A stretch of 64,000 nt of DNA from Vibrio artabrorum (lineage in GTDB: Bacteria > Pseudomonadota > Gammaproteobacteria > Enterobacterales > Vibrionaceae), in contig NZ_AP025459.1 of NCBI RefSeq assembly GCF_024347295.1, positions 186,001 through 250,000 on the forward strand. The letters are read 5' to 3'. Positions within the stretch are counted from its first letter, which is position 1; each line of letters opens with the position of its first letter. Under the pieces are notes generated by a model. It ran no database searches, was not told the DNA's origin, and saw only the letters and a program-made list of their open reading frames with translations. Shown here one piece after another: positions 9,202 through 54,976 of the stretch. The translations under genes and the position numbers were made by a program.

Positions 9202-10718
<1,517 letters not shown>

Positions 10719-10740
10719 TACCAGTCGTAATTAAAACGGG

Positions 10741-10829
10741 TTGTCCTCGATTCTTTGAGTATCGAGGACAAAGCTATGAATAAAAAGCAACAAACTGTCT
10801 TCACCACCTCCTGCCCGGTGGGTGGTGAA
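10741..10829 (+). other. Two tandem hairpins between frmA and fghA
   Basis: First hairpin: TTGTCCTCGAT (10741-10751) pairs with 10761-10771 around a 9-base loop. Second: TTCACCACC (10800-10808) pairs with GGTGGTGAA (10821-10829). Neither has a terminator-type T run. They could stabilise the frmA part of a shared transcript, act as partial terminators, or regulate fghA translation, since the second ends 34 bases before its ribosome binding site. Confidence 0.5.
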
Positions 10830-10878
10830 ACTTAAAATGCTATAGACAAAAAACCATCAACCTAACGGAGCACCATAG

Positions 10879-11718: not shown

Positions 11719-11730
11719 CCAGATGAATTT

Positions 11731-11768
11731 AGCCCGCACCTTGTAAGCGCAAGGTGTGGGCTTTTTTG
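11731..11768 (+). terminator. Rho-independent terminator after fghA
   Basis: A 13-bp stem with one mismatch (AGCCCGCACCTTG at 11731-11743, partner 11750-11762) with a 6-base loop and a six-T tail, 13 bases after the fghA stop. Confidence 0.9.
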
Positions 11769-11981
11769 TGCCTGCTTTTACTCATACTCATCGATATAAA
11801 TCAAAGGATGTAGGCAGAGAATCGTAAGCAAAGATTTAAGATCAAAAAGTTGTGAACAGTGAGTCAACTCATTCAAACTTTCTAACAGACTGGTGCCACC
11901 TTCACTTATTCATACTCTTACAATCAGCAAATCAAACCTGTTACCATAGCGTCTTCAACATCACTTATTTTGAAGGTTGCA

Positions 11982-12383
11982 ATGAAAGTAATTAAGACTC
12001 TTTTCTTTCTGATGGTTTTATTAAGCGGCCTATTTACCGCCTGGTTGTTTATACCGATCCCTGCGACCATGGACAAACAAACACTTAATGTGCCACTAAC
12101 GGAACCGTTCAAGCTTGTGGCATATCGCAGCAATCCGAATGATGCAAGCAAACCACTCACTTACCACTACTATGTGATTTCAGATGTGGTTGGTGTGGAC
12201 GATATGGATCCGTTTCTAATTACTACAGACCAATTCGTGAAGCTTGGCGAATTCGACGAGAACACATTCAACCTTACGGTTAACGGCAAGATTGAGCGCT
12301 ACACCAACGATTTGTGGGTCAAAAAGGCCGACGGCAAGCTGCAGCACTGGTACGTGAGTATTGATGCGAACTATATTCGCTAA
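11982..12383 (+). CDS. Small membrane-anchored protein of unknown function
   Basis: 133 residues from ATG 11982, chosen over the in-frame TTG at 11970 because AAGG (11973-11976) sits just before it. One hydrophobic segment (about residues 5-24, TLFFLMVLLSGLFTAWLF) is an uncleaved anchor or signal peptide. The rest is a polar domain rich in Thr, Tyr and Asp that should lie in the periplasm. I do not recognise a family. It is monocistronic, with its own terminator. Confidence 0.7.
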   Translation: MKVIKTLFFLMVLLSGLFTAWLFIPIPATMDKQTLNVPLTEPFKLVAYRSNPNDASKPLTYHYYVISDVVGVDDMDPFLITTDQFVKLGEFDENTFNLTVNGKIERYTNDLWVKKADGKLQHWYVSIDANYIR

Positions 12384-12408
12384 AATCGAACGGCAATAGA
12401 CCTCATTC

Positions 12409-12443
12409 AAAAACTGCGCTTTGGCTTCCAAGCGCAGTTTTTG
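12409..12443 (+). terminator. Rho-independent terminator
   Basis: AAAAACTGCGCTT (12409-12421) pairs perfectly with 12430-12442 around an 8-base loop and ends in five Ts, 25 bases after the small membrane protein. The remaining 280 bases to the next gene are AT-rich and show only a likely promoter zone. Confidence 0.85.
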
Positions 12444-12723
12444 TTCCCACTCATATTAAGAAACTTTCTTAAGAGCCTATGCTCGGCTCCAAATAAATTA
12501 AAAACAATAAAAGGTCACCCATGGAATGTTGACTCTACAGACTTCAAATTATTTGGTAAATAGAATAGCATCAGGAAAAATACAACCTTAACGGAAGCGA
12601 AGTAGGGAAAACCTAACGCCTCAATTAAACGATAATTTTCAGTATCTAAATTGGTACCGTCAAGCTAATTGGGTGTAGAATGATATAAAAATCATTAACC
12701 GTTATTATTTTTTCGAGGTCACA

Positions 12724-14277
12724 ATGAAAATATTAAAGCTATTACTCGCAGGACTTATATCTATAACCATAGTGGCGTGTGGTGGCGAATCAGATTCAAG
12801 TCCGGTTCCAGCACTCAATAAAACATCTAAAGTCGTCATCCAACCTGAATCTGATACAGGGTATTCAAAGAATGCAGTGACCTCATCCTCTCTCCATTTA
12901 GGCACTACATTAAATCTCAGGGCTTATGAATTCGATTCGACGGGTGACGATGACCCAGGTCTAATGCCAGATAAGACTGCGTGGAAATCTAGTAATGAAA
13001 ATGTTGCAACCGTTAGCCAAAATGGAGAGCTGACTACTCACAACGAAGGTCATGCCGAAATAACAGCAGTCATTAATGGTGTAAGTAGCAAAGCTTATAT
13101 TATCGAAGTCAATCCTGCGGCGTTAGCTGAGATCAACCTCACCAACAACAACTATATGAACCTTCCTCAGGGCACAACTATTCACTACCGCGCTATCGCT
13201 ACTTATACTGATGGTACTTTACAAGACATAACCTCAAACGCAACTTGGGAAACCGATAATAATTCAGTGGCTAATTTCGTTGAAAAAGGCGTCTTAAAAG
13301 GGTTATCTACTGGAGAAACGGAGGTTATCGCATCATTTAAAGGGATCTATTCAAATGTGAACAGTAATAGCTGGGGCTGGGGACATACATATATCAACGT
13401 CGTTTCGGCTAAAATTAAGAATATCACACTCACAAACAATACCGAGCTAACCGTAGCTGTGGGTGAAGCGTTTAGACCGACAGTAATAGCTACATATACT
13501 GATCTAACCCAGCAAGACGTTACTATCAATACTGACTGGAAAATTTCAGATGAAACAATAGCCAAAAGTGGAAATAAAATTCAAGCCTTATCTGCTGGCA
13601 ACACCACAGCCACAGCCACTTATGCAGGGAAAAGCGTCACATTAAACTTAAAAGTAACCCCTGCGAAACTGACCAAAATAGACATAACGGAAAATGACCT
13701 TAGAAATGGTTATACTGTAGCAAAAGGTTATAGTTTACAGTTACATGCATTGGGTACCTATGGTGATGGCAGCAAACGTGATATAACCTCTATGGTTAAC
13801 TGGAACACGACTGGAAATTCGACCTATTTTACCTATCAATACAATGAGTCAGGGCTAGTTCATAGCGCAATACCAGGGTTTTCTGATATCACCGCAACCC
13901 TTGGTGATGTACAAAGCCAGCCTCAACGCATTCAAGTCAAAGATAAAGTCATTGAGTCTCTTAGGATTGCTCAACCAAAGGATAAGCTTACCCTAACAAT
14001 GACTGACCAAGATGGAAATACAGATGATCAGCGTTTCACTCCTCGTCACTTTAGTGTTGTAGCCATTGCAACCTATAGTGACAATACGGAAGGTTTCGTT
14101 CAGGATAGGATTCATTTCAAGATAGCGGATCAATCAATAGTACAACCTAGCAGGGCTAGCTACACGACAGATATTTTTTATCAAACACTTAAACCTGGCA
14201 CTACCACGCTTACGGCATGTACATATCAAGAACAACCCGTTTGTACTGCTCCGGTTGAAATTGAAGTCATCAACTAA
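12724..14277 (+). CDS. Lipoprotein with about five bacterial Ig-like (BIG2) repeats
   Basis: 517 residues. A lipoprotein signal peptide ends in the lipobox IVAC (Cys19), so it is acylated and sits on the inner or outer membrane. The rest looks like five Ig-like BIG2/invasin-type repeats starting near residues 35, 125, 220, 305 and 400. They show the repeated pattern ATYTDGT..DIT...W. Such proteins are often surface adhesins or scaffold modules; no enzyme or ligand-binding domain is seen. The function is an inference from repeat type only. A long terminator follows 57 bases later. Confidence 0.8.
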   Translation: MKILKLLLAGLISITIVACGGESDSSPVPALNKTSKVVIQPESDTGYSKNAVTSSSLHLGTTLNLRAYEFDSTGDDDPGLMPDKTAWKSSNENVATVSQNGELTTHNEGHAEITAVINGVSSKAYIIEVNPAALAEINLTNNNYMNLPQGTTIHYRAIATYTDGTLQDITSNATWETDNNSVANFVEKGVLKGLSTGETEVIASFKGIYSNVNSNSWGWGHTYINVVSAKIKNITLTNNTELTVAVGEAFRPTVIATYTDLTQQDVTINTDWKISDETIAKSGNKIQALSAGNTTATATYAGKSVTLNLKVTPAKLTKIDITENDLRNGYTVAKGYSLQLHALGTYGDGSKRDITSMVNWNTTGNSTYFTYQYNESGLVHSAIPGFSDITATLGDVQSQPQRIQVKDKVIESLRIAQPKDKLTLTMTDQDGNTDDQRFTPRHFSVVAIATYSDNTEGFVQDRIHFKIADQSIVQPSRASYTTDIFYQTLKPGTTTLTACTYQEQPVCTAPVEIEVIN

Positions 14278-14334
14278 GTAATAAACATAAAAATAGCCAC
14301 TTAGCTTAATTCAGTTAAGACGCTATATACCTTT

Positions 14335-14385
14335 AAAAAGATAAAAATCCGAGAGTATTCTATACACTCGGATTTTTATCTTTTT
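14335..14385. terminator. Long bidirectional terminator
   Basis: A perfect 19-bp stem, AAAAAGATAAAAATCCGAG (14335-14353) with 14367-14385, and a 13-base loop. Runs of A and T on both sides let it work in either direction; it ends the Ig-like lipoprotein transcript. Confidence 0.88.
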
Positions 14386-14387
14386 AA

Positions 14388-14404
14388 GAGCTTTGTTGCG
14401 TAAA
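14388..14404. repeat. Solo IS5-type end
   Basis: GCTTTGTTGCGTAAAT (14389-14404) matches the left end of the intact IS5-family element at 42596 nearly base for base. No transposase sequence follows. A second, worse match (GGGCTTTGTTACAG, 14880-14893) lies beyond the small lipoprotein gene in the same orientation. They may be scars of old insertions. Confidence 0.5.
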
Positions 14405-14490
14405 TCGATGGGCTCTTTACTTGTCATGGCTCGACTCATCAAGGCTCTTGAACTATTGTTAAACATATCAGTCGTTCGAGAGGGTCAAAT

Positions 14491-14871
14491 ATGGCAAAGT
14501 TCATATTACTACTATTTTTTATGGTTATTTCTACGGGCTGCGGAACAAGCGACAGTACCCTAATTGAAAGCGGACATAACATGGCTTATGTGCAAGGTTT
14601 TCATGATGGCAGACACAGTGGTATACAAGAAGCTGGCAATAACTTTGAAACCTATATTAAGGACCAAAAGCGTTATGAATCCGATGTTGATTATCAGCAA
14701 GGTTGGATCGCAGGTGAGTCTGAGGGGAAAAGACTACAAGATAATGCAAGATCATTCGGTAAAAGCGTCGCGACTAGCTATCATCCAAAGTCTGAAGTGA
14801 CCAATCCTGACAATGAGGCAAAAAAAGCATTAAAGAGTGTCGATACATCGGACTTAAAAAACCTAGAATAA
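14491..14871 (+). CDS. Small lipoprotein with two YxxG-type repeats
   Basis: 126 residues. The signal ends in the lipobox ISTGC (Cys17). Two related units follow: YVQGFHDGRHSGI near residue 34 and YQQGWIAGESEGK near residue 69, each spaced by Gly and aromatic residues. The C-terminal third is polar and probably unstructured. I do not recognise a function. It lies between two IS5-end-like scars, so it may have come with mobile DNA. Confidence 0.65.
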   Translation: MAKFILLLFFMVISTGCGTSDSTLIESGHNMAYVQGFHDGRHSGIQEAGNNFETYIKDQKRYESDVDYQQGWIAGESEGKRLQDNARSFGKSVATSYHPKSEVTNPDNEAKKALKSVDTSDLKNLE

Positions 14872-36089: not shown

Positions 36090-37319
36090 TTATAAACCTT
36101 CATGCTCTGTCAAGTTAATAATAATGCTCTTAACCACATTACTTGCCGCCACGAGTGATGGAACCGGCAAATATTCAAATATCGAATGGAAGTTGTGAGC
36201 ACCAGTAAATATATTCGGACATGGTAACCCCTTTTCTGAAAGCACAGCCCCATCATAACCGCCACGCATAGGGATCACTTTTGGTTCTATACCATTCTCT
36301 TTATAGGCCGTCATTGCGAGATCAACAGGCAACATAGAATCTTTTAGATAATTGTGCACATTGCTATAACGATCCGTCAATTCAAGAACAGCTCTATTAT
36401 TGTTCCTTTCATTGAATATTCTAACTTGTTCCGCAATAAAGGCTTTACGATACGCATAGCCTTCTTCCGTAAAGTCGCGAATATCCATATTAAGAACCGT
36501 TTTCGCTGAGTTACCTGCCAGTTTCTTCATCCAATAGTAACCTTCGCGCCCCTCAGTATGCTCTGGCGTTTCTTTTGCTGGAAATTGGGTCATAAATGAA
36601 TTGGCCAACAGTAAAGAGTTGATCAAATTACCTTTTGAGTTCATAGGGTGCGCAGATTGTCCTGTGAATGTAACCACGGCATTACCTGCGTTCCAGTTTT
36701 CACAAACAAACTCACCAATTCCACAACAATCGAGTGTGTAAGCAAAATCGGCACCAAACTCATTCACATCAAATGCATTTGCTCCAAGAAGCCCTTGCTC
36801 TTCATCAGGAACAAAACCTACCTTTACCGTCCCGTGTTCGACGTCTTGATTTTCTTTAAAAAACTGCAACGCATTTAAAATAGCAGCGATAGCGGCTTTA
36901 TCATCGGCACCGAGTAATGATTGCCCGTCACTCACGATGATTTCTTGCCCAATATAATTTGCGAGTTCAGGCTGTTCTGCTAAAGAGAGAATTGGGCCTG
37001 TCGATAATGGAATGTCTCCGCCCTGATAATGAACCACTTCTGCATGCGTGTCTTCAGTGCGTTCTGAGCTAGTATCAAGATGCCCAAAGAAAGCAACGGT
37101 TGGTAATTTTTTTTCAGAGTTAGAGGGTAAAGTAGCGGTCAGAATAGCGGTATCTCGAAGAACGATATCAACACAACCTAGCTCTTCTAATTGCTTTTTA
37201 ACCAAACACGCTAATTCGTATTGTCCAGTGCTTGAAGGCATGATGCCTGCGGCACCGTTTGCTTGGTTTGTGGTTGTATTAATCTCTGTGTAACCTAAAA
37301 AGCGCTCCACTATATTCAT
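36090..37319 (-). CDS. pepT: Peptidase T (tripeptide aminopeptidase, M20B)
   Basis: 409 residues. M20 metal ligands: His in FFGHLDTS near residue 77, Asp in LLGADDKAAI near 138, catalytic Glu pair in PDEEQG near 171, Asp in TLDCCG, and His in FTGAHNFHS near 376. It removes the N-terminal residue of tripeptides in the cytoplasm. First gene of a two-gene operon with dcuC, which suggests that amino acids such as aspartate from peptides feed C4-dicarboxylate exchange. Confidence 0.94.
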   Translation of the reverse strand: MNIVERFLGYTEINTTTNQANGAAGIMPSSTGQYELACLVKKQLEELGCVDIVLRDTAILTATLPSNSEKKLPTVAFFGHLDTSSERTEDTHAEVVHYQGGDIPLSTGPILSLAEQPELANYIGQEIIVSDGQSLLGADDKAAIAAILNALQFFKENQDVEHGTVKVGFVPDEEQGLLGANAFDVNEFGADFAYTLDCCGIGEFVCENWNAGNAVVTFTGQSAHPMNSKGNLINSLLLANSFMTQFPAKETPEHTEGREGYYWMKKLAGNSAKTVLNMDIRDFTEEGYAYRKAFIAEQVRIFNERNNNRAVLELTDRYSNVHNYLKDSMLPVDLAMTAYKENGIEPKVIPMRGGYDGAVLSEKGLPCPNIFTGAHNFHSIFEYLPVPSLVAASNVVKSIIINLTEHEGL

Positions 37320-37790
37320 TGCTTAAATCCAAGTTTTAATAAAACGAAGATATTACAATTTTTACCACTTGATTGAGTGACTATTATCTCAATAAACCTA
37401 ATCTAAAAGTGATAATTTAACTTTCAAAAATAGCTATACCCAACTCGAGATTTTGAATGTTTAAATATTGTTTTTTATTTGAAAATAAAATGAATCAATT
37501 ACTCAATGTATATTGTATTGAATTATTCGTGAATAAATAACTTACTGCCGAACAATCGATCAATAAATAAGCACTTCTCATACTGCCTTTTTATCTCTTA
37601 ACCAGGCAACCCCCTTATATTTCAGCTGAGTTAATCATATTCGTTTCCATAGTAGCTCACTTACTGGTCAGTTTAATTCATCCAACTGAACGAGAATATT
37701 CCGTTCAATGCTGTGAAAAAATACAAGACTAATAACAATCTCCTGGAAAATAGGAGGGCGTTTGGCGCTAGACGATGAGTTGTCGAAAAA
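37320..37790. other. Gene-free stretch before pepT
   Basis: 471 AT-rich bases between the pepT start and the MarR gene end. It should hold the pepT-dcuC promoter. I looked for an FNR site (TTGATNNNNATCAA), expected for pepT, and found only a poor partial match at 37370-37392. A weak CTCCT/AGGAG stem lies near 37742-37758. Confidence 0.35.
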
Positions 37791-41409: not shown

Positions 41410-42595
41410 CGTTGTATCTCTTTATCACTCTATTTACGCAAGGCGTTCAACTTGGCCTGAGCGATACCAAAAACCGTATCAATTGGGTAACTTCCCTCAT
41501 CACTCGCCTCACCCGCAGCTTTGCCGGTAAACAGCTTAATCGCTTCAGTAACATGATCGATGGCCCAGATATGGAACTCACCCTTTTCAACCGCTTTAAC
41601 GATATCACTGCGCAACATTAAGTTATGAATATTCGAGCGTGGAATGATGACTCCTTGCTCCTTTGAACGTCCTTTAATTTCACACACATCAAAGAAGCCT
41701 TCAATTTTCTCGTTCACACCACCGATGGGCTGAGACTCGCCAAACTGGTTCATTGATCCTGTAATTGCAATGTCTTGACGATTTGGCTGTTTGGAAAATG
41801 CAGACACTACCGCACAGAATTCAGCCATACTCGCACTGTCCCCATCAACCCCTCCATACGATTGCTCAAAGGTAATATGAGTAGTCAGTGGGACTTTTGC
41901 TGTCTTACCAAACACCGAAGAGAGATAAGCAGATAAGATCATCACACCTTTAGAGTGAATACTGCCTCCTAGGTCTACATTTCTTTCGATATCAATGACC
42001 TCACCATCACCATAAGCGGTGGTGGCAGTGATTCGGTTTGGCGCGCCAAACATGTGGTCCGTTGTACTGAGTACCGACAATGCATTGACTTGACCCACCG
42101 CCTGACCGTCCACATGGATCAGCGTTGTTCCATTGGTGAAAGTCTCCATAACACTGTCTTGTAATCGGCCGACACGCATCTGTTGATTAGACAGTGCTTG
42201 GTCAACATGGGTAGCACGAATCAGGTTCGATTTCGATCCTCTTGCTACATAGTTTGATTCACGCAGCAGATTCGCAATATGTGCCGAGTGTAGTGATAGT
42301 TTGCCTTGGTCTCCTGCTTGACGAGAGCTGTGCTCAATGATCCGAGCAATCGCTTTTCGGTCACAATGCAACATGTTGTTGTCGTGTATGATGCTTGAAA
42401 TGAAGCGTGCATAATGCATTTCAGAATCCGCAGTACGCTTCATCTCATCTTCAAAATCAGCTGTCACACGGAACAGTTCAGCAAACTCTGCATCGTAATG
42501 CTGCAATAGTTGATAAGTACGATAATCACCAAACAGAATGATCTTCACATCTAATGGGATTGGCTCAGGATCGAGTGAAACAGCCCCAGTTAACG

Positions 42596-43649
42596 GGCTT
42601 TGTTGCGTAATTAAATTTAGAGATAGAGCCAACCCGTTTCGCTTGTTTCTTAGTCAATGCGACAAGTTTCAGGCATACCTAACCCAGTAAGCTTGTTCAA
42701 CGCTTTTATCATCGCGTAAGTTTCACCCACCTGGGCATTGTAATTTCTTAAGCTCAGTTTCCCTCCTAGCAACTGTTTAACTCGATACATCGCTGTTTCT
42801 GAGAGTGAACGTTTGTGGTATCCATACCGCTCTTTCCAATACTTATTTGAGCCGTATAATTTCTGGCAACCCACGGCGAGATTTCGAGGGTGACCACGCT
42901 CCCAAAAGGCAGCCCCTTCTCTTGGGGGAATAAGCGCAATAGCTCCCTTAATCTTAATAGCAGCGTGACACGCTCTCGTGTCGTAAGCGCCATCACCAGA
43001 CACCTTAAGGATACTTCGGCGTGTTTGTTTCAGTAAGTTCGGGAGTACTTCTCCATCTGTAACCGTCGATAAACTTAGCTCGGCGGCAATGATCTCATGA
43101 GTGTTGGTATCGACTGCAATATGCAGCTTTCGCCAGACTCTACGCTTGCCATCCGTCCCATGTTTTTTGACTTTCCATTCACCTTCGCCATAAACCTTAA
43201 GGCCAGTAGCATCAATAGCTAGGTGCTGTATCGCTCCTCTCGTTTTAGTCTTAAATGAAACCTCAACTTGCTTGGCTCTACGACTGATGCAGGTGTAATG
43301 CGGACAACTTAACGGTACATGGGCTAACCTAAATATCGAGTCGATAAATCCTTGCAGCGCTCTCAATGGCATAGAAAAAACTCGTTTGACCATGAGTGCT
43401 GTCGTGATAGCTAAATCACTGAACCGACGCGGCCTCCCGCGCTTATTCTGTTTGCTTTGCGCCCATCCGCTTATTGCTTCTTCATCAATCCAAAAGGTCA
43501 GAGAACCACGGTTAATGAGTGATTGGTTGTATTGCTTCCAGTTAGTTGTTTTGTAACGTGGTTTAGGCATAGGGCTACGAGATAGAGTGGACGTAGCTGC
43601 TCAGATCGTAGGTTCTTGATTTAGTTCCATTGAATTACGCAACAACGCC
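42596..43649 (-). mobile_element. Intact IS5-family insertion sequence, 1,054 bp, in the Lon-like gene
   Basis: Terminal inverted repeats: left GGCTTTGTTGCGTAATT, right end read inward GGCGTTGTTGCGTAATT. The 9-bp sequence CAGTTAACG occurs at both flanks (42587-42595 and 43650-43658), the target duplication length of the IS903 group. The identical duplication and intact transposase show a recent insertion. Confidence 0.95.
42650..43570 (-). CDS. IS5-family transposase
   Basis: 306 residues. DDE residues lie in LAIDATGLKVYG (near 120), GDGAYDT (near 195) and the Y-R-E signature YGYHKRSLSETAMYRVK (near 260), giving an intact IS4/IS5-type catalytic core. The N-terminus MPKPRYKTTNWKQY is shared with the relic at 46630. 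It should cut and paste or copy the element. Confidence 0.95.
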   Translation of the reverse strand: MPKPRYKTTNWKQYNQSLINRGSLTFWIDEEAISGWAQSKQNKRGRPRRFSDLAITTALMVKRVFSMPLRALQGFIDSIFRLAHVPLSCPHYTCISRRAKQVEVSFKTKTRGAIQHLAIDATGLKVYGEGEWKVKKHGTDGKRRVWRKLHIAVDTNTHEIIAAELSLSTVTDGEVLPNLLKQTRRSILKVSGDGAYDTRACHAAIKIKGAIALIPPREGAAFWERGHPRNLAVGCQKLYGSNKYWKERYGYHKRSLSETAMYRVKQLLGGKLSLRNYNAQVGETYAMIKALNKLTGLGMPETCRID

Positions 43650-44853
43650 CAGTTAACGTCACCTCCTTCTCTAATGAAGTGAAACTCAACTGACGGGAAC
43701 GTAATGCACGCTTCAAGCCTTCCCAAACATAGGGCTGTTCAAGCACTTTCACCGCATCCATTAACAATACACCGCCATTGGCTCGGTGTAAGCTACCTGC
43801 ACGAATCAATGAGAAGTCCGTGAATACCGTTCCCTTGAACGTCGCCGTTTCTACATAGCCAAACAGAGAGTGATAATTTGGGTTCTCTTCAACCACAATC
43901 GGCAGAGACTGTTCTTTTTGGCTAACAATAACGTTCACCATATAACGACGGGGCATTTTCTTATCCAAAGAGGCGGTCGCAACTTCTGCCTGATCGGCGC
44001 TCTCTTCAAGGAAAATATCGGCATTATCAACAATATCCTTGCGCAGTGCAGTGAGGTATTTTTTTATCTCTGGATATTGGCTGTAATCCAACTTCAACTG
44101 CTTGATGAAGTGAGTAATCACATCTCGTGCCGTGTCATCATTCAGCTTTTGGATTTTCTCTGTGTAGGTCTCTTCAAGTTCCGTCAATTCACGAGAAATG
44201 GTTCGTAACCCCACTTCCAATGCATCGATGGTTTTATCGAACTGATCTTGCTCTTCAGCAGAGAGCAGATCAAAGCTCTCTTCGGTATGAAGCTCATCAC
44301 CATTCATTGCGACAAACTGATAATCACCTTGTGTAGTAATCGTCAGGTTAATGCCTTTATCTTTTGCTTCTTGGCTAATCGTTTCCAATGCTGCTTGTTG
44401 CTTTGCAGCCAATTGATTTTTAAGCCTATCAGCACGGCTAAAGTACATCTCATTGTCGAATGCGAGCGGCATGGCTTTAAGCAATTTACGCATTAGCTTT
44501 TCAATATCTTGCTTTAAGCTACTGCCGACACCACTCGGTAACTTAAGCACCTTAGGTGTACGAATATCTTCAAAGTTCGCGATATAACACCAATCAAAAA
44601 GCTCCTCAACGTCTTGTGGGTGACGGTTAAGATAACGCAAAATCATGGTGCGCTTGCCTAAACCATTGCGCCCTATCGCATAAATGTTGTAACCCTTTTC
44701 CTTAATTGACATCGCGAACTCAACGGCTTTTTGTGCCCGCTCCTGTCCAACAATTTCATCAATTGGAGCCAGTTCTTTGGTCGACTTACAAGGCAGTTTC
44801 TCTAGGTCTGCTACCTGATACAGCTGTTCTGTATTGAGTCTTTGTATCGCCAT

Positions 44854-45938: not shown

Positions 45939-46710
45939 GGCTTTGTTGCATAATTCAGATAGCAAACCAACCAGCCTGAAATTGAATGATTATTAAACAG
46001 CATAGTGAGTGTCAGGCATACCAAGCCCTGTAAGTTCATTTAGCGCTTTGAACATGGCGTAAGTCTCACCAACCTGAGCGTTGTATTTTCTCAGGCTTAG
46101 TGTTCCTCCCAACAATTGTTTCACTTGATACATGGCTGCTTCGGAGAGCAAACGCTTGTGATAGCCATATCGCTTTTTCCACTTCTTATTGGATCCGTAG
46201 AGCTTTTGGCAACCTACAGCTAAGTTCCGAGGATGACCATCCTCTCAAAACGCCGCCCCCTCTCTTGGAGGGATGAGCGCAATGGATCGTTTTAGCCGTA
46301 TGGTATCGTGACAATCCCTTGTGTCGTAAGCTCCATACCCAGATATATCAATGATTCTTCGGTGTTTCTGCTTGAGTAAGTTGGGCTCTGCATCAGTGAC
46401 ATTAGATTAGCTCAGTTCTGCGGCAATTACTTCGTGGATGCTGGTGTCTAGATATGCAGCTTTCTCCAAACTCTACGTTTCTCGTCGGTACTATGCTTTT
46501 TAACTTTCCATTCACCTTCTCCATAAACCTTGAGGTCTGTTGCATCAATCCAGAAGGTCACAGGAGCACGGTTGCTTAAGGCTTTATTGTACTGCTTCCA
46601 GTTAGTTGTTTTGTAATGAATTTTCGGCATGAGACTACAATGATTAACGGATATAACCGATCAGATCGTAATTTTCTGATTTAGCTCCATAGAATTACGC
46701 AACAAAGTCC
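45939..46710 (-). mobile_element. Decayed IS5-family copy with an internal deletion
   Basis: The ends GGCTTTGTTGCATAATT (45939) and ..ATTACGCAACAAAG near 46710 match the intact IS. The transposase begins MPKIHYKTTNWKQYNKAL and then jumps from TFWID to ATDLKVYGEGEW, skipping about 90 residues (~280 bp), with further stops and frame breaks. It is in the same orientation as the intact copy and lies just left of the AT-rich metabolic cluster. Confidence 0.88.
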
Positions 46711-46839
46711 GGGTGGGGGTCAAGATCAGAAATAACGCCTTCGGTGTTTAAAATTAGTAAACGATTTGTTTAATGCTAAACATATTCCTCTTATTAATTA
46801 GCAGGACTATTATGTGGGAAATTTTTACGGAGAATAATT

Positions 46840-48060
46840 TTGAAAAATAAAGTGTCTTTTATATTGGCATTATTAATATGTTTCTTATCTTTAGGTGGAT
46901 TAATATCTACAGATATTTTTCTTCCTGCATTAAAAAGTATGGGTGAATTTTATGATGCAACTCCACAGGACATGCAAAGTTCTATAGCTATATTTTTACT
47001 TGGAATATCAATAGCGCAACTTATTTATGGACCAATTACAGATAGTCTTGGAAGAAAGAAAGTTCTGTTATTTGGATTATTAGTTTGGTTCCTTTCGACG
47101 GTTGGAGTCTATTTATCTCAAGATTTTCGGTCTTTAATGATATTAAGATTGCTACAAGGTATTGGGGCATGTGCGGGGATAACAATTAGTAGAGCTATAA
47201 TCAGTGATTTACTTGATAAAGAGAGCGCAGGTCTTTTCTATTTAACAATATTTCCATTTGTTGGTATGTCACCTGCGATAGCTCCAATGATAGGAGGTGT
47301 TCTAAGTGATAATTTTGGATGGAAATCGTGCTTTCTATTTTTGACGATATTCATCTTTGTTACGATAATTCTTAGCTTATTTGTATTAAAGGAAACACTA
47401 CCTAAAGAGAAAAGAATTCCATTTAACTTCAAGTCCCTATCACTAAATACTGTCAAGGTATTGAAGTTCGGCCCATTTTTATACTACTCGGCAATTCCGT
47501 GTTTTGCTTACGCAATATATTTTGCCTACATCGTTGAGTCGCCATTCATACTTACATCCCTAGGGTTAGGTGGCGAGTTGGTTGGATACTCATATTTTAC
47601 TTTGTCTCTGACTTATGTTTTAGGAAATATTACAGCCAAAAAATTGGCAAAAAAACAAGGCGTAAACGCGACTATAGACCTTGGCTATAAGATATTTTTT
47701 ATTGGTGGCCTTTTATTCGGATTGCAAACATACATCAGTCCATTTCCAGTTTTCACAAGTATTCTGACTATTTCTATTCTGACATTCGGTAATGGTTTCT
47801 TATTACCTCTAGGAACAGCTAGCGCAATCGGTTCAGTTCCTGATTTATCTGGTATTGCCTCTGGAATTATGGGATGTATGCAAATAGGAAGTGCAGCAGC
47901 CTCATCATACTTTATTGGGATTTTGTCAAACCACGATAATTTAAAAACAGGTGTGATAATCGCAATTTCATCTTTCATTGGAATTACAATTTATACACTT
48001 GGTAAAAAAGAAGAAAAGAAATTTAGCAGCGCAATTAATAAAGGTGTGCAAAATGAATAA
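46840..48060 (+). CDS. MFS transporter, Bcr/CflA-like
   Basis: 406 residues from TTG 46840 with GGAG (46829-46832) upstream. Twelve hydrophobic helices; the start SLGGLISTDIFLPALKSMGE and the motif DSLGRKKVLLFGLLV resemble Bcr/CflA-type drug:H+ exporters. First gene of the AT-rich cluster (parts near 22-35% G+C, against about 45% in neighbours). Its last 8 bases overlap the next gene. It may export the product of the cluster or carry its substrate; family precedent favours export. Confidence 0.88.
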   Translation: MKNKVSFILALLICFLSLGGLISTDIFLPALKSMGEFYDATPQDMQSSIAIFLLGISIAQLIYGPITDSLGRKKVLLFGLLVWFLSTVGVYLSQDFRSLMILRLLQGIGACAGITISRAIISDLLDKESAGLFYLTIFPFVGMSPAIAPMIGGVLSDNFGWKSCFLFLTIFIFVTIILSLFVLKETLPKEKRIPFNFKSLSLNTVKVLKFGPFLYYSAIPCFAYAIYFAYIVESPFILTSLGLGGELVGYSYFTLSLTYVLGNITAKKLAKKQGVNATIDLGYKIFFIGGLLFGLQTYISPFPVFTSILTISILTFGNGFLLPLGTASAIGSVPDLSGIASGIMGCMQIGSAAASSYFIGILSNHDNLKTGVIIAISSFIGITIYTLGKKEEKKFSSAINKGVQNE

Positions 48061-49018
48061 TTTACAAAATGTAGATGTGACGTTACGTGACGGCGGGTAT
48101 TTAAATAATTTCAACTTTACCTTGGAATATGCTATCGAACATGTAAGAAATATGACGCTAAGTAACATAGAATGGATTGAAATTGGTTATAAAAATGGTT
48201 CATTTAAGCCAATTAATAACATTGGAATTACAGGTGTGTGTAGTAACCAATATGTATCAAAGATCCATCAAGCAGTACCAGAAGCAAACCTTTGTGTTAT
48301 TTGTCATACCAAGAATATCTCAAAATCTGATATTACGCATCTCTTTGAAAATGGCGTTGGATTCTTAAGATTGTGTTTAAACATTGACACTTGTACTGAT
48401 GAATATTTCCATCAAACATTAAGTTATGCTGAATATGCGAAAAGTCTTGGCATGTTGGTTAGTATTAATGCAGTTCGTGTAAGTCAGACCAAGCTGAATA
48501 AATTGATAAACCTTGTTTGGGCTGCAGAGAAATGTGGAGTAGATATCATATATCTTGCTGATTCCAATGGGAGCTTGACACCAAGACTTGTAAATAAATA
48601 CATCTCTACACTCGCAAATACCAGCGATTCGATGAGAATAGGCTTTCATGCTCATGACAACATTAATATGGCTATGGCTAATAGCATTGAAGCGCACCTA
48701 GCCGGAGCTGAATTCATTGATAGCTCCATATCGGGAATGGGTAAAGGCTCTGGCAACTTAAACATTGAAAGTTGGATCAGTTATGTAACTAATAATTTAG
48801 GCTCCGACAAGTATCGACTTGGTCATTTATTCAAGCAATGCGACATCCTTAGCGCTCAATCTTTCTTTATAAAACCTGAGAGAAAAGTCTTAGACATGAT
48901 TCTTGCCGTTAGTAACCTAAGTGTCGAATACAAGGAAAACCCACTATTCGCTAACATGGATGATGTCGATAAAGTACTTGAAGGGGCGCTAAGTTTAAGT
49001 GGGGGGATTCCTGCTTGA
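48053..49018 (+). CDS. HMGL-like DRE-TIM aldolase/lyase family enzyme
   Basis: 321 residues from ATG 48053, with AAGGTG upstream; overlaps the MFS gene by 8 bases. DRE-TIM metallolyase motifs: DVTLRDGGY (8-16) and the metal-binding HAHDN near 200, with GMGKGSGNLNIE near 235. Relatives are 4-hydroxy-2-oxovalerate aldolase, HMG-CoA lyase, homocitrate and isopropylmalate synthases; LRDGGY is nearest to the aldolase-like members. It should join or split a C-C bond next to a 2-oxo acid. The exact reaction is unknown. Confidence 0.82.
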   Translation: MNNLQNVDVTLRDGGYLNNFNFTLEYAIEHVRNMTLSNIEWIEIGYKNGSFKPINNIGITGVCSNQYVSKIHQAVPEANLCVICHTKNISKSDITHLFENGVGFLRLCLNIDTCTDEYFHQTLSYAEYAKSLGMLVSINAVRVSQTKLNKLINLVWAAEKCGVDIIYLADSNGSLTPRLVNKYISTLANTSDSMRIGFHAHDNINMAMANSIEAHLAGAEFIDSSISGMGKGSGNLNIESWISYVTNNLGSDKYRLGHLFKQCDILSAQSFFIKPERKVLDMILAVSNLSVEYKENPLFANMDDVDKVLEGALSLSGGIPA

Positions 49019-49764
49019 ATTCAATTTCGTTTCCAGCCACCAGTATATTAGGACTAGATAAAAAAATTGCCGTCATATTGGCACCCGTAATGCCAGTATG
49101 GGACTGCGGCCAATTTTGTGAGCCATTGATATCCTTGCTTACTCGTCGTGGCTTCGACGTGACAGTTATTGATACGCTGTCAATCACAACCACCCCCGAT
49201 TTAGGTGTTTCACTGCAGCAATTAAAGGGAGCTCTTAGCTTTATAACAAATGGCAGGCCATTTTTAATAGGTGGGGTGGCTCTGGGCGGAGCATTAGCGC
49301 AAAAACTTTCTTGTGAGCTACCTAATATTGATAGGGTGATTTCTATTTCTGGCCCGACATTTCCTAACCAGGAACTAGATACAAAACTCTCGACGCTAGT
49401 TGATAGTTTGGAAGCCAAAAATTTAGATGTTGCAATGAATCAATTGTACGACTGGTTACCTCCTAAAAACAGTTATGAACAGAGAGCTCCGAGAATCGAT
49501 AAAAACGCGTTTAGTGATGCTATAAATAGGATGAAAGCTGGCTTCTCTATTCTTAGGCAAATCGACGCCAGAGAGTCCATTAAGGAATTTAAAGGTAAGA
49601 CACTTTTAATGGTTGGTGAGCTCTCTCAGATGGTCAGTAAAGAAAACCTTTTAGAGAACTATCACAGTCCAACATACACCGCTTCAATTATTAGAAATGC
49701 CGGGATGCGTCCTTGGCAAGACAATGAGAAGCTATCCTATAAAACAGTCGAAAATTGGTTATAA
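49015..49764 (+). CDS. Alpha/beta-hydrolase-like protein lacking the nucleophile Ser
   Basis: 249 residues from TTG 49015, which overlaps the stop of the aldolase gene; a G-run (49001-49006) serves as ribosome site. The fold pattern is that of a small alpha/beta hydrolase, but the nucleophile elbow reads G87-V-A-L-G91, with Ala where Ser, Cys or Asp is needed. It may be a non-catalytic partner or use another chemistry. Third gene of the cluster, 1 base from the next gene. Confidence 0.62.
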   Translation: MNSISFPATSILGLDKKIAVILAPVMPVWDCGQFCEPLISLLTRRGFDVTVIDTLSITTTPDLGVSLQQLKGALSFITNGRPFLIGGVALGGALAQKLSCELPNIDRVISISGPTFPNQELDTKLSTLVDSLEAKNLDVAMNQLYDWLPPKNSYEQRAPRIDKNAFSDAINRMKAGFSILRQIDARESIKEFKGKTLLMVGELSQMVSKENLLENYHSPTYTASIIRNAGMRPWQDNEKLSYKTVENWL

Positions 49765-49765
49765 A

Positions 49766-51952
49766 ATGGAAAAGAAAAAAGTCCTAGTCCTTCCTGGGGA
49801 CGGTATTGGTGTGGATGTCTGTAACGCTGCGTTACCAATATTTGATGTTTTAGCACTGCCTATTGAATTGTCATTTGGAGATATTGGTTGGTCTTGTTGG
49901 GAAAACGAAGGCACTCCAATACCAGTGAGAACCTGGGATCAAATATCAAAATCGGATGCAGTACTGCTAGGTGCCATTACCAGCAAAGGTAAAGATGAAG
50001 CCGAGAAGGCACTTCCGAAAGAACTTCAAAATAAAAATTGGCAATATGTGTCACCTGTCATTCAACTGCGACAACAACTTGGTCTCTTCGCTAATATTCG
50101 ACCAGCACATTATATTAACGGAGACCGGGAACCGTTTGATCTATGCGTTATAAGGGAAAATACAGAAGGATTGTATGCTGGTTTTGATTTCAAGGGGATT
50201 CCCGAGAATCTAGATAACTTTCTGACTCACCCTAATATCGGTGTTTACGGCCCTAAAGAAGTAGCCTGGTCTGTTCGCCTACAAACGAAGCACGGACTTT
50301 CTAGATTATTTAAGAAAGCGTTCATTTATGCCGAAGACCACGGTCTTAAAAGAGTAACCTTTGCAGATAAGCCAAACGTAATGCGTGAAAGCGGTAAATT
50401 TGCAAAAGACATATTTTTTGATATTGCGAGTAACTATCCTGATATCACAGCTGACATACACAACGTTGATGCAGTTGCCTTATGGTTAGTTAAGAAACCA
50501 CATGAGTTTGGTGTAATTGTCGCTGAGAATATGTTCGGAGATATCTTATCGGATTTGGTTGCTGGTGTAATGGGTGGCTTAGGTGTAGCTCCTAGCGCGA
50601 ATATAGGCTCAGATATTGCGTACTTTGAACCAGTTCATGGCAGTGCACCCAAAATGGCTGGAAAGGGAAAGGCGAACCCTTGTGCGTTATTTATGTCTAT
50701 TGCATTAATGCTGGATTACTTGGGATATCCAGATCACGCATCTCGTCTAGAAGTTGCCGTAAAGCATGTCATAAAATCTCGTGTAGCCCTTAGTTATGAT
50801 TTTGGAGGAGACGCTACAACTGTTGAAGTCGCTAAAGCGATTATCGATGCATATCGAAATCAAACCGAAGGTAGGACAGTGGCCATATTAACTATCGGTG
50901 ACGAATTACTTTCGGGAAAATCAATAAATACTAATTTATCTGATTTATCCCAAATTGCCGAGCACAAGGGCTATTCAGTGGTTAGGCAGATAGTTTGTAG
51001 CGATTCCGTTGGAGACATTGAACAAACCATTTCAAAACTAGCTGGTGATGTTGACTACCTGGTGCTCTCCGGTGGTTTAGGGCCTACAAGTGATGACCGA
51101 ACCAGATTTGCAGTAGCTGAAGTGGCCAAAGAAAGCTTAGTCTTTAACGACTGTTCCTGGAGACATATAGAGTCACGTTTGACAAATTTCAACGTAGCTG
51201 TAGATGAGTCAAATCGAGTTCAAGCTATGTTCCCTGAAACCGCAGCTATTTTAAGTAACCCAATTGGCACTGCTAATGGCTTCTCTTTAAACATTTATGG
51301 AACAAAAGTACTTGTCTTGCCTGGTCCACCAGCCGAAGCAAAATATTTACTTGACAAGTACTTAGCCGAAATCGTAAATGCTTCAAATTCTACCAATAGC
51401 TACAAATGGAGCATTATGGGCGTAAGCGAAGGAGAGGTAGGGACTTTTTTTGAAACAACGCTCAAGAAATATGATTTAAAACTCCATTACCTTTGGAAGT
51501 ACCCATATGTGCAGGTCGAAGCAATTCTTCCTAAAGGGCATACTGTTGCTGACTCAACACTTCGAACCATAAGAAAGGAATTTGGAAAACTTCTCATTAG
51601 TGAAAGTGGCGAAAAAGCATCGGAGATAGTATCTAGACAAAATCTCGGTATTAACTGGGAATCCAATAGTGAATCAATTAGTAAAAACATTTCGAAGGAA
51701 CTGTCTGCTATTACTAGCAACAAAAATATCAATACAACTATTCATTTTGAAATTTACCCTTCGTTAAGTGAATTACTGAATAATAAGATTTTCACAGGCG
51801 ATTGTTGGTTAGTTTGTCACGACGATAACGGAAATAAGGACTCAATCTCATTCCCGTGCCGTGGGTCAGAAATCCAAGTGTTTATAAAAGAATATCTATG
51901 TAATTTCGTGCTCAGATTATCAGAGAGTAATATAAAGGATGCTGTATGCTAA
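49766..51952 (+). CDS. Isopropylmalate/isocitrate-dehydrogenase-like enzyme fused to a CinA-type domain
   Basis: 728 residues from ATG 49766. Residues 1-365 form a beta-decarboxylating dehydrogenase: LPGDGIGVDV, RENTEGLYAG, DKPNVMRESG, AENMFGDILSD and EPVHGSAPKMAGKGKANP. Residues ~370-620 are a CinA N-domain (MoCF-like): LTIGDELLSGKSINTN, SGGLGPTSDDRT and LPGPPAEAKYLL. The last ~110 residues match nothing I know and are not the CinA deamidase. The first part should oxidise and decarboxylate a 2-hydroxy acid using NAD(P); the CinA part is of a family linked to pyridine nucleotide repair. I know of no described protein with this fusion. Confidence 0.85.
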   Translation: MEKKKVLVLPGDGIGVDVCNAALPIFDVLALPIELSFGDIGWSCWENEGTPIPVRTWDQISKSDAVLLGAITSKGKDEAEKALPKELQNKNWQYVSPVIQLRQQLGLFANIRPAHYINGDREPFDLCVIRENTEGLYAGFDFKGIPENLDNFLTHPNIGVYGPKEVAWSVRLQTKHGLSRLFKKAFIYAEDHGLKRVTFADKPNVMRESGKFAKDIFFDIASNYPDITADIHNVDAVALWLVKKPHEFGVIVAENMFGDILSDLVAGVMGGLGVAPSANIGSDIAYFEPVHGSAPKMAGKGKANPCALFMSIALMLDYLGYPDHASRLEVAVKHVIKSRVALSYDFGGDATTVEVAKAIIDAYRNQTEGRTVAILTIGDELLSGKSINTNLSDLSQIAEHKGYSVVRQIVCSDSVGDIEQTISKLAGDVDYLVLSGGLGPTSDDRTRFAVAEVAKESLVFNDCSWRHIESRLTNFNVAVDESNRVQAMFPETAAILSNPIGTANGFSLNIYGTKVLVLPGPPAEAKYLLDKYLAEIVNASNSTNSYKWSIMGVSEGEVGTFFETTLKKYDLKLHYLWKYPYVQVEAILPKGHTVADSTLRTIRKEFGKLLISESGEKASEIVSRQNLGINWESNSESISKNISKELSAITSNKNINTTIHFEIYPSLSELLNNKIFTGDCWLVCHDDNGNKDSISFPCRGSEIQVFIKEYLCNFVLRLSESNIKDAVC

Positions 51953-52617
51953 CTAACAAACAAAAAGAACTCCGAGCAAGACTACTTGCCTTAGATACAC
52001 CGGCGATTTCTGATGCATTGGATAGTTTATCAATAAACGGTGGTCTGCTAGGTATTCAGTGTAGAATTAACGGCCTGAAAATGGCTGGTCCGGCATTTAC
52101 CGTTAAATACAAACCAATACAGTTTGATTCGCAGCATTTTAAAAACGCAGGAAACTACATCGACAACGTACCTGAGTGCAGTGTGGTTTTAGTTGATAAC
52201 CAAGGACGTACGGACTGTACTAGCTGGGGCGGCATACTAACCACAAAAGCCAAACTAAAAAATTTAGCTGGAACTGTCATTTTTGGCTCAGTTCGCGATC
52301 TACAGGAAATCAATGAAAAAGAATACCCTTTGTTCTCAGCAGGGGTGTACATGGTTTCGGGAAAAAACCGAGCAGTAGTTGAAGCGACTAACGTACCACT
52401 GAACATCAATGGAACAACTGTTAAAGACTCGGACTGGCTGTTTGGTGACATGAATGGTGTTCTGGCGATCCCCGCTGAACACTTGGAAGAAGTGATTTAT
52501 AGGGCAGAAAAAACCGAACAAACCGAGTTAAATATTCTCGGTGCAATTTCTGGTGGCCAAAATCTCGAAGAAGCCAGAGTACAACACGGCTATAGTGAGC
52601 CCTGGAAGGAAAAGTAG
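51946..52617 (+). CDS. RraA-family protein (HMG/CHA aldolase-like)
   Basis: 223 residues; its start overlaps the fusion gene by 7 bases. RraA fold marks: TPAISDALDSL near residue 17, GPAFTVKY, a GGILTTKAKLKNLAG block near 95 and SVRDLQEI near 113 with the metal/substrate Arg-Asp. Relatives are 4-hydroxy-4-methyl-2-oxoglutarate and 4-carboxy-4-hydroxy-2-oxoadipate aldolases that also decarboxylate oxaloacetate; others are RNase E inhibitors. In this operon an aldolase role on a carboxylated 2-oxo acid is more likely. Confidence 0.82.
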   Translation: MLTNKQKELRARLLALDTPAISDALDSLSINGGLLGIQCRINGLKMAGPAFTVKYKPIQFDSQHFKNAGNYIDNVPECSVVLVDNQGRTDCTSWGGILTTKAKLKNLAGTVIFGSVRDLQEINEKEYPLFSAGVYMVSGKNRAVVEATNVPLNINGTTVKDSDWLFGDMNGVLAIPAEHLEEVIYRAEKTEQTELNILGAISGGQNLEEARVQHGYSEPWKEK

Positions 52618-52618
52618 C

Positions 52619-53500
52619 GTGTCAGAATTTTCCAGTTATTGGAGTGAGCGTCTTGAGTTTCTAGACGTTCATTACCATGCAGATGTAGACCAATTCAAAA
52701 GGCGCTATAACGTTATACAAGCGGGGGAAATGTACCAAAAGCTAAAAGGAGGCGTGGTACTTAAGAATCATCTTGGTAATTGTGCATCTTTAGCTAGTTT
52801 GGCTCAAAGTTTTGATTTACCCGTTTTTGGTTCCACCGTTCTAAATGATATATCGGGAGGCCTTAGCGTCCAGCCAATAAAGAATGCTCTTTGCCAATAT
52901 GAGTTTAAGCTCAAAGGAAGAATGTTGGTCCACTTGCCAACCATTGTTCCTAATAAGCATAAGAGTAAGCTAACTCGTTCATACACTAATGAACAGGTGG
53001 TTAAATTTGCCACTAAGTCTATAAAAATAACCGACGATGATGGCAAGCTACTCGATAGTGTAAAAGAGATCATCGAGTTTGCCGAAAAGCAAAACATCGT
53101 TATTTCTACGGGCCACGCAGCAAAGCATGAAATATTCGCTTTGGTGGAATACATTCATGGTCATAGTAAAAAAGTTAAGCTGATGCTCAATCAGCCAGCA
53201 AATCCTATTACTGGCCTTTCTGCAAAGGAGCTAAGACAGTTTGAAGGGTTTGACTGGTTGTATACTGAACAAACAGCACTAACACTTTTATTAGGCTACC
53301 AATCGATTGAAGACTTTGCGGATGTAGTAACTAACCAAAAAAATGTAGTATATAGCTCAGATTTAGGTCAGATCAGTCAAATAGATATTCCCGAATGGAG
53401 GGCTCAATCAGCGACTTGGTTTGAAACCATAGGATTAACTAAATCCAGAGTGCAGGAAATATCATTAGAAACGCCACTCAAAATGTTGGACCCTGATTGA
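52619..53500 (+). CDS. Amidohydrolase-like metal-dependent hydrolase (DUF6282-like)
   Basis: 293 residues from GTG 52619 with GGAAGGA (52603-52609) upstream, 1 base after the RraA stop. A TIM-barrel amidohydrolase pattern: LDVHYHAD near residue 18 gives the HxH metal pair, STGHAAKHEI near 165 another His, and SSDLGQ near 250 the catalytic Asp. It likely opens a lactone, lactam or amide in the cytoplasm. Last gene of the cluster operon, ending 1 base from the convergent LysR gene. Confidence 0.72.
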   Translation: MSEFSSYWSERLEFLDVHYHADVDQFKRRYNVIQAGEMYQKLKGGVVLKNHLGNCASLASLAQSFDLPVFGSTVLNDISGGLSVQPIKNALCQYEFKLKGRMLVHLPTIVPNKHKSKLTRSYTNEQVVKFATKSIKITDDDGKLLDSVKEIIEFAEKQNIVISTGHAAKHEIFALVEYIHGHSKKVKLMLNQPANPITGLSAKELRQFEGFDWLYTEQTALTLLLGYQSIEDFADVVTNQKNVVYSSDLGQISQIDIPEWRAQSATWFETIGLTKSRVQEISLETPLKMLDPD

Positions 53501-53501
53501 T

Positions 53502-54380
53502 TTAGCACGAGCATATCTTCAGAGACTTAATGAATTCGACAAAAGCTTTCTCTTTTGGTGATAAGTTTCTGTTTATATGCACGAGGTATATAGGAAGAGG
53601 TGGGGGCATAAACTCATCGAGAACTGTAATAAGCTCACCTCTTTCTAATTCTTGGGAAACAGTGAAATCTGGAAGATAACAGATACCTAAATTTTCACTA
53701 GTAAACTTTAAAATATCTAAGCTGTTATTAATAGTCGTATTTCCCCTAACCGCCACATCAACTTCTAGTTTGTTAACGACATATTTCCATGTTGCCGTTC
53801 TGTTGGCAAAATGAACAATGCAATTGTGGTTTTCTAAATCAGCTGGTATTTTAGGTGTTCCATATTTTTCCATGTATTTTCTGGTGAGACAGGTCTTTTT
53901 TCTCCAGTATCCTAATTTAGTAAAATATAAGTTAGAGTCAGGCAGATTGCCGCAGTGAAAAGCTAAATCGTATCCATGACTGAATAATTCCAGGGAATGA
54001 TTGCCTGATATTAATTCCAAATTTATATTAGGGTGTTTTTCAATAAATTTATTTAATCTCGGTAAAAGGTGAAGGTTGTTTATTGAATGTGGAACACCAA
54101 CTTTGAGTTTCCCGTTTATATCGCTAAGAACGCTCATCTGTTGATGCATACAGAGGTCATAATCTTTAAGTAGATTAATCACATTGTCATAGAAGACCTT
54201 ACCTTCGGTCGTCATAGTAATGTTTCTTGAGTTTCTTTTTAACAAAGCAGTATTAAGCTTCTGTTCTAGGGCGTTTATGTGTTTAGTCACTAACGATGGC
54301 GATATATTCAGTTCCATGGCGGCAGCTCTGAATCCACCTTTAGTAACCACCATTCTAAAGGATTTCATTTCTTTAATCAT
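53502..54380 (-). CDS. LysR-family transcriptional regulator
   Basis: 292 residues. N-terminal winged helix-turn-helix (FRAAAMELNISPSLVTKHINALEQKL) and a LysR substrate-binding domain (about 90-290). It is convergent with the cluster operon and shares its low G+C. LysR proteins usually regulate a divergent neighbour; here the operon lies tail to tail, so it would act on the promoter near 46.8 kb at a distance or control other genes. Confidence 0.88.
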   Translation of the reverse strand: MIKEMKSFRMVVTKGGFRAAAMELNISPSLVTKHINALEQKLNTALLKRNSRNITMTTEGKVFYDNVINLLKDYDLCMHQQMSVLSDINGKLKVGVPHSINNLHLLPRLNKFIEKHPNINLELISGNHSLELFSHGYDLAFHCGNLPDSNLYFTKLGYWRKKTCLTRKYMEKYGTPKIPADLENHNCIVHFANRTATWKYVVNKLEVDVAVRGNTTINNSLDILKFTSENLGICYLPDFTVSQELERGELITVLDEFMPPPLPIYLVHINRNLSPKEKAFVEFIKSLKICSC

Positions 54381-54507
54381 TTTCGTTTTGTTTTTTTATA
54401 TGCTATGTAATATATGAATACACCATGAAACAAAAGGATTTGTCAAACCTCTAAGTTGTTAAAAACAATCTCACACGTCAGCGTCATTAACAACGAGTGC
54501 ACCAAAT

Positions 54508-54976
54508 ATTCACCTTCGCCATAAACCTTGAGACCTGTAGCATAAATGGCTAGGTGCTGTATTGCTCCTCTGGTTTTTGCCTTAAATGAGACCTTAACTT
54601 GCTTAGCTCTTCGGCTGATACGGGTGTAGTCTGGGTAGGTTAGGGGGATGTTAGCCAGTTTGAACAGTGAATCGATAAATCCTTGTTGCGCTTTCATTGA
54701 CATAGAAAAGACTCGTATCACCATCAGGGCAGTAGTAACGGCTAAGTCGCTGAACCCGATGCCTACCGCGCTTTATCTGCTTGCTTTGCTTCCACTCGCT
54801 TATCTTCCTCATCAATCTAGAACGTCAGAAAACCACGGTTGATTAAGGCTTTGTTGTACTGCTTCCAATTGGTTGTTTTATAACAAGGTTTCGGCATAAG
54901 GCTACGATGATTAACGGATATAGCCGATCAGATCGTAAGTTTCTGATTTAGCTCCATCGAATTGCGCAACAAAACC
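54508..54976 (-). mobile_element. Truncated IS5-family relic
   Basis: The right end (rc GGTTTTGTTGCGCAATTC at 54976) and the first ~130 codons of the transposase remain, with stops and frameshifts; a 93-codon frame (54443-54724) still reads VFSMSMKAQQGFIDS and LKVYGEGE. The rest was lost at about 54508, where the sequence joins the DNA next to the LysR gene. Same orientation as the copy at 45939. Confidence 0.85.

Follow-up and report, generated by a model that had tools for sequence, protein, structure and literature searches.

What does a compact group of seven genes do in Vibrio artabrorum, and do these genes belong together? The genes lie in a 64-kb window (the whole stretch analysed, 64,000 bases of contig NZ_AP025459.1) that is part of a two-contig genome of 4,443,332 bases. 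Six genes of one direction (g1 to g6, 46840-53500) meet a convergent LysR regulator gene (g7, 53502-54380) between two relics of insertion sequence (IS) elements, and all seven reading frames are open (Table 1). The gene order is kept between phyla, which bears out the original prediction that the cluster is a coherent unit. We tentatively read it as an acquired, intact-looking operon of a widespread, undescribed pathway by which a branched hydroxy- or oxo-polycarboxylic acid may be made and exported.

Conserved gene neighbourhoods

The six genes are tightly packed, with successive spacings of -8, -4, +1, -7 and +1 bases; the LysR gene faces the operon one base past the last stop codon, that of g6. 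These values agree with the predicted gaps of 1-2 bases or overlaps. The gene calls and a Pfam/NCBIfam scan of the seven proteins likewise reproduce the predicted set of six packed genes plus LysR and its list of families; the scan assigned families to g1, g2 and g4-g7 and none to g3. The list of open reading frames (ORFs) begins g2 at an upstream TTG (47978), and the gene call uses the ATG at 48053. Promoter-like sites (13, against a shuffle mean of 25.9) and terminator-like sites (7, against 6.6) showed no excess over shuffled sequence.

A joint search for the cluster genes across genomes gave neighbourhoods that are related, not random. Among 80 named loci (there were at least 80 matching stretches), 31 carry at least one further cluster gene and 49 carry none apart from weak single matches. 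Fifty loci were compared, drawn from the named loci, from further genome searches and from one Legionella plasmid; L109, L110-118 and L129-136 were picked for DUF6282, the others mostly for the dehydrogenase. Gene order was read from tblastn because first-pass gene calls in the G+C-rich loci gave false antisense ORFs. A five-gene core, comprising homologs of g2-g6, is present in 34 of the 50 loci and occurs in Proteobacteria and Streptomyces. The locus L109, from the order of Photorhabdus, has all seven genes in the order and orientation of the window, with the LysR gene convergent. Its identities to the window are 56% for the MFS carrier, 46% for the HMGL-like protein, 40% for g3, 66% for the dehydrogenase, 31% for the MoCF domain, 58% for the RraA-family protein, 48% for DUF6282 and 48% for LysR.

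The 16 loci that do not have the full core are mostly from Bartonella and retain the carrier, g3 or the fusion. These Bartonella copies (L010, L012-L017, L022-L024, L034 and L038) look decayed, with RraA and DUF6282 homologs at E<=1e-10 in one of the 12. Every core gene is visible in B. tribocorum C635 (L034), several of them broken, and other Bartonella do have DUF6282 proteins.

Table 1. Genes of the cluster and flanking IS relics, in window coordinates.
Feature	Coordinates	Strand	Evidence
Left IS relic, internal deletion	46008..46706	-	blastn against intact copy: 74.6% over 552 and 76.8% over 164 columns
g1, MFS carrier, Bcr/CflA subfamily, 406 amino acids	46840..48060	+	TIGR00710 221.2 bits, cut-off 200.9
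g2, DRE-TIM (HMGL-like) aldolase, 321 amino acids, ATG start	48053..49018	+	PF00682 110.1 bits
g3, alpha/beta-hydrolase-fold protein, 249 amino acids, TTG start	49015..49764	+	Ala at nucleophile place, no conserved His
g4, isocitrate/isopropylmalate-type decarboxylating dehydrogenase fused to CinA-type MoCF (COG1058-like) domain, 728 amino acids	49766..51952	+	PF00180 274 bits, PF00994 94 bits
g5, RraA/aldolase-family protein, 223 amino acids	51946..52617	+	PF03737 111 bits
g6, DUF6282, amidohydrolase-fold protein, 293 amino acids, GTG start	52619..53500	+	
g7, LysR regulator, convergent with operon	53502..54380	-	PF03466, PF00126; LysR 48% identical at same place in L109
Right IS relic, one end only	54508..54973	-	77.9% over 470 columns against intact copy; PF13737 in ORF 54443-54724

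Protein families and motifs

The g2 protein belongs to the DRE-TIM (HMGL-like) superfamily, scoring far above the PF00682 cut-off of 29 bits and carrying the RDG and HxH motifs. RDGG, HxH[DN]N and GMGKGxGN are found in all 13 aligned rows, and its sequence relatives in the PDB are 3dxi and 4-hydroxy-2-oxovalerate aldolases. As a 4-hydroxy-2-oxovalerate aldolase proper it falls below the TIGR03217 cut-off (109.4 against 286 bits).

The g3 protein had been described as hydrolase-like, and this holds for the fold, whose best structural match is RutD, but not for the catalytic residues. Of 17 aligned rows, 10 have Ser and 7 have Ala at the nucleophile place, and no His occurs among the invariant or 90% columns. 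It therefore lacks the conserved nucleophile and His of canonical alpha/beta hydrolases.

The g4 protein is a fusion. Its MoCF half has the CinA/COG1058 motif GG[LI]GPTxDD in 28 of 28 aligned rows, and the nearest PDB sequences are CinA proteins. It is not a complete CinA, since Pfam finds PF00180 and PF00994 and no PncC deamidase domain, and NF001813 gives 131.4 bits against a cut-off of 379. The dehydrogenase half reaches no substrate-specific NCBIfam cut-off (best NF040626, 291.8 against 540 bits).

RraA-type class II aldolases have the motif G-X20-R-D-X2-E/D. RD is present in g5 in 15 of 15 aligned rows, and in nine of them, including the window, the third residue after D is E; the nearest PDB sequence is 3k4i, which is uncharacterized. 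Identification as the RNase E regulator RraA was rejected (NF006875, 45.3 bits against a cut-off of 136), and the score for a LigK/CHA aldolase is also low (TIGR02798, 57.5 against 304.5). Substrate-specific names for g2, g4 and g5 were rejected in general, the best scores to characterised families all being under the curated cut-offs. DUF6282 (g6) has a TIM-barrel fold with HxH, which places it in the amidohydrolase superfamily; this is the fold of lactone and cyclic-amide hydrolases. A search of full-text literature, which covers subscription journals only in small part, found no paper on DUF6282.

Clusters with and without the MoCF domain

The 50 loci fall into two types. Of the 24 loci whose dehydrogenase has the MoCF half, 21 have the Bcr/CflA carrier, against none of the 26 without that half; L020, one of the three MoCF loci that have no carrier, starts at the end of its contig. 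Fisher's test on this table gives p 3e-11, a figure that ignores kinship and is not a usable probability. Among the 26 MoCF-less loci, 17 carry NMO and ABM genes and 14 carry LLM genes. Eight of the 26 are of a Legionella type, with DLH in all eight and ATP-grasp genes in six. In one Legionella locus (L026, 59-7169) four ATP-grasp (RimK-like) genes precede the MoCF-less cluster. In the Pseudomonas loci L116-L118 a second luciferase-like monooxygenase gene and an MFS gene lie opposite the cluster. Six Streptomyces loci contain a TcuA-like FAD dehydrogenase (348 bits, cut-off 369), which points to tricarboxylates.

A tree was built from 43 cluster dehydrogenases with four plain relatives as outgroup. 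Eight of the 50 loci (L011, L013, L015, L022, L024, L034, L042 and L136) were left out, the gene calls being missing, broken or short, or the locus absent. The cluster dehydrogenases are split from the plain relatives at 100/100, and the window groups with Photorhabdus and L109 at 98/94. The tree needs three changes between the fused and the separate state, so the carrier and the MoCF half are not linked through one inheritance. Their link is seen on either side of the proteobacterial and Streptomyces branches, though few independent changes underlie it.

Distribution and acquisition

The cluster is rare among close relatives. Of the 196 genomes searched in the genus, only the own one has DUF6282 at E<=1e-20. 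Of 295 genomes in the order, one has the full-length fusion and six others match the dehydrogenase part alone. Four further searches for DUF6282 at E<=1e-40, each around a centre genome that is itself counted, gave 2 of 345 genomes in the order of Photorhabdus, 11 of 249 in the genus of P. chlororaphis PCL1601, 10 of 295 in the genus of S. griseofuscus and 1 of 249 in the family of Burkholderia paludis. Loci from such searches take the kinship of the centre genome.

In a protein database, Vibrio apostichopi has relatives of both the fusion (56%) and DUF6282 (55%), and relatives of the fusion are also listed for Aliivibrio fischeri (81%) and a Photobacterium halotolerans metagenome-assembled genome (91%). 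The cluster is therefore rare and scattered, not unique or simply absent from the genus. A search with the fusion gave 2,656 matches at E<=0.001. Among the best 120, which were listed, full-length relatives are found in Enterobacter, Salmonella, Photorhabdus, Xenorhabdus, Lonsdalea, Bartonella, Pseudomonas, Chromobacterium, Pseudoalteromonas and Liberibacter crescens. Plasmid records contain the fusion once and DUF6282 12 times, of which only the one in Legionella adelaidensis is near. Phages searched with the fusion gave no match at E<=1e-40, E. coli genomes searched by blastn with 3,549 bases of L109 gave no match, and viral contigs compared with alignment A5 gave 32 pattern matches and no relative.

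The predicted position between two IS5-family relics of the same orientation is confirmed by blastn against an intact copy in the window, near 42650-43645. The relics are 87-88% identical to each other and 75-78% to the intact copy, whose near relatives in Vibrio plasmid records carry the name IS5; 28 places in the own genome match the IS query, the query itself included. The intact copy (42650-43570) interrupts a LonB-like protease gene (41430-44853) that is unbroken in the relative L152. The stretch before the AraC-type neighbour is unlike that of the window in five relatives, which marks a variable site. L152, of the same genus, has about 6.5 kb (8207-14769) with no match to the window at this place, from the LonB-like side to the AraC neighbour. 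A composite transposon as a demonstrated fact was rejected, both relics being truncated. A recent, horizontal acquisition is supported by the occurrence in the own genome alone among 196 of the genus, by the IS relics and by the variable site among relatives.

The base composition had been predicted to be far more AT-rich than that of the neighbours. The cluster is indeed lower in G+C (38.5%) than the remaining window (43.3%, with 46-55 kb left out), but the difference is moderate and uneven. Against 40 other window ORFs of at least 150 amino acids (mean 45.1%, standard deviation 3.2), only the MFS gene (34.2%, z -3.4), LysR (35.5%, -3.0) and the HMGL ORF (36.0%, -2.8) are clearly AT-rich. The other four genes are not outliers: the fusion and DUF6282 both have 40.3% (-1.5), the hydrolase-fold gene 41.2% (-1.2) and the RraA gene 43.2% (-0.6). 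Codon-use z-scores of the cluster genes range from +0.2 to -2.1. Within the MFS gene, G+C drops to 23% in the lowest 100 bases, close to the 22% predicted. The window as a whole is most AT-rich not in the cluster but at 37301-37600 (near 37.4 kb), where G+C falls to 20% per 100 bases.

Relation to known pathways

Several characterised systems share parts with the cluster. The protocatechuate 4,5-cleavage enzymes LigI-LigJ-LigK, a lower pathway in which lactonase and aldolase act on oxo- and hydroxy-tricarboxylates, combine an amidohydrolase-fold lactonase with an RraA-family class II aldolase. The seven genes differ in having no ring-cleavage dioxygenase and in the score of g5 to the LigK model given above; DUF6282 is presumably not the Pfam family of LigI. 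The elongation of 2-oxo acids for leucine, lysine and coenzyme B (synthase, isomerase, dehydrogenase) resembles the pairing of a DRE-TIM enzyme with a homoisocitrate-type dehydrogenase, but the closer kin of g2 are hydroxy-oxovalerate aldolases, not acyl-CoA synthases, and the seven proteins include no aconitase-type isomerase. The meta-cleavage pathway has a 4-hydroxy-2-oxovalerate aldolase of the same superfamily as g2, which is however under the TIGR03217 cut-off, and the seven genes include no acetaldehyde dehydrogenase or hydratase.

The CinA/COG1058 pyrophosphatase shares the conserved motif of the g4 MoCF half, but in g4 this domain is fused behind a dehydrogenase and no PncC domain was found. 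Links to the Rut system for pyrimidine utilisation are the likeness of g3 to RutD and the RutA- and RutF-like genes that MoCF-less relatives carry; the scores of these genes are far under the cut-offs, and the cluster in the window has none of them.

Full-text literature searches, covering subscription journals only in small part, found no description of the gene set, which may have a name elsewhere. The prediction that no system of this composition has been described thus stands for the papers searched; the composition is not unique, as the order recurs in other genera. No known, named pathway was found in those papers, and the neighbourhoods are related ones. Every protein family is known, and the combination and its chemistry are new as far as the searches reach.

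Possible function

Beyond the observed gene content, order, conservation, folds, motifs and patchy distribution, we infer reactions, a product and a direction. Two class II aldolase families, a complete decarboxylating dehydrogenase, a lactonase-like barrel and the TcuA-like enzyme of Streptomyces point to branched hydroxy- or oxo-polycarboxylates, and the family assignments support the earlier suggestion that the enzymes suit a branched carboxylic acid. The DRE-TIM and RraA-type aldolases would join or split pyruvate-type units, giving a citrate-like tertiary hydroxy acid, and DUF6282 would close or open a lactone. The NAD-dependent half of g4 would oxidise a 2-hydroxy-3-carboxy acid with loss of CO2, and its CinA-type half would cleave a dinucleotide, perhaps an NAD adduct. 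The g3 protein, a hydrolase fold minus the usual His, may be a substrate binder or a non-hydrolytic lyase. The carrier would export the product and LysR would sense an intermediate.

We tentatively prefer synthesis and export to catabolism on four grounds: the carrier, the ATP-grasp genes, the sparse occurrence and the kinds of host. In the last three, with hosts that include Streptomyces, Pseudomonas, Burkholderia, Photorhabdus and Xenorhabdus, the loci resemble biosynthetic clusters. Several points weigh against this preference. Many MoCF-less loci have LysR, two-component flavin monooxygenase, ABM and NMO genes, which fit catabolism too. RraA-type and hydroxy-oxo-acid aldolases mostly work in the cleavage direction, and the Bcr/CflA family includes importers by NCBIfam name, such as FslD. 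None of g1-g7 has a known substrate, and g2, g4 and g5 are under the cut-offs of all characterised families. The cluster in the window has no aminotransferase, ligase or oxygenase, and most of the 12 Bartonella loci retain no more than the carrier, g3 or the fusion at E<=1e-10, so the parts are not kept together there. It is possible, if doubtful, that the carrier instead imports a branched polycarboxylate or lactone, which DUF6282 opens, the dehydrogenase decarboxylates and the aldolases break down to pyruvate and other central acids. On this reading, other lineages would use their oxygenase and FAD enzymes as upper-pathway modules, and their oxygenase genes and LysR regulators fit such a route. 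The window's own cluster, however, has no oxygenase, hydratase or CoA enzyme, its carrier comes from a mainly efflux-named family and tracks the MoCF half, and Legionella-type loci have ATP-grasp genes.

The MoCF half bears on two further readings. An unlikely route of synthesis runs through an NAD adduct: the dehydrogenase half would let an enolate attack NAD, the fused CinA-type half would cut the dinucleotide, as a step of synthesis or as built-in repair, and the carrier, which goes with this half, would export the product. It is distinctly unlikely that the cluster is a detoxification or metabolite-repair island, one that gets rid of a reactive acid of host or plant origin, with NAD adducts removed by the MoCF half and the compound pumped out by the carrier. 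A study of M. tuberculosis CinA reports cleavage of drug-NAD adducts by the COG1058 domain (PMC9033802), whose motif is kept in every g4 row aligned, and many of the bacteria that have the fusion are host-associated (Bartonella, Photorhabdus, Xenorhabdus and Lonsdalea). Two aldolases and a dehydrogenase nevertheless exceed what detoxification needs, and soil pseudomonads and Legionella also have the five-gene core with neither the MoCF half nor the Bcr/CflA carrier. Least probable by far is a set of unrelated genes gathered by IS elements, or a functionless, decaying island. Relics on both flanks, the IS-rich genome and the decaying Bartonella copies would suit this, but all seven genes are open, and chance assembly by IS elements was rejected because the seven-gene order is identical in L109 and the core recurs in most loci compared.

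The cluster ties five enzyme families, including DUF6282 and the dehydrogenase-CinA fusion, into one testable pathway in Proteobacteria and Streptomyces. If the NAD-adduct route were true, a dehydrogenase with its own adduct-cleaving domain would be the core of an undescribed, phylum-crossing pathway. Once the product is solved, hundreds of unassigned genes would be explained together, and this could be the first role of a CinA-type domain within a metabolic enzyme.

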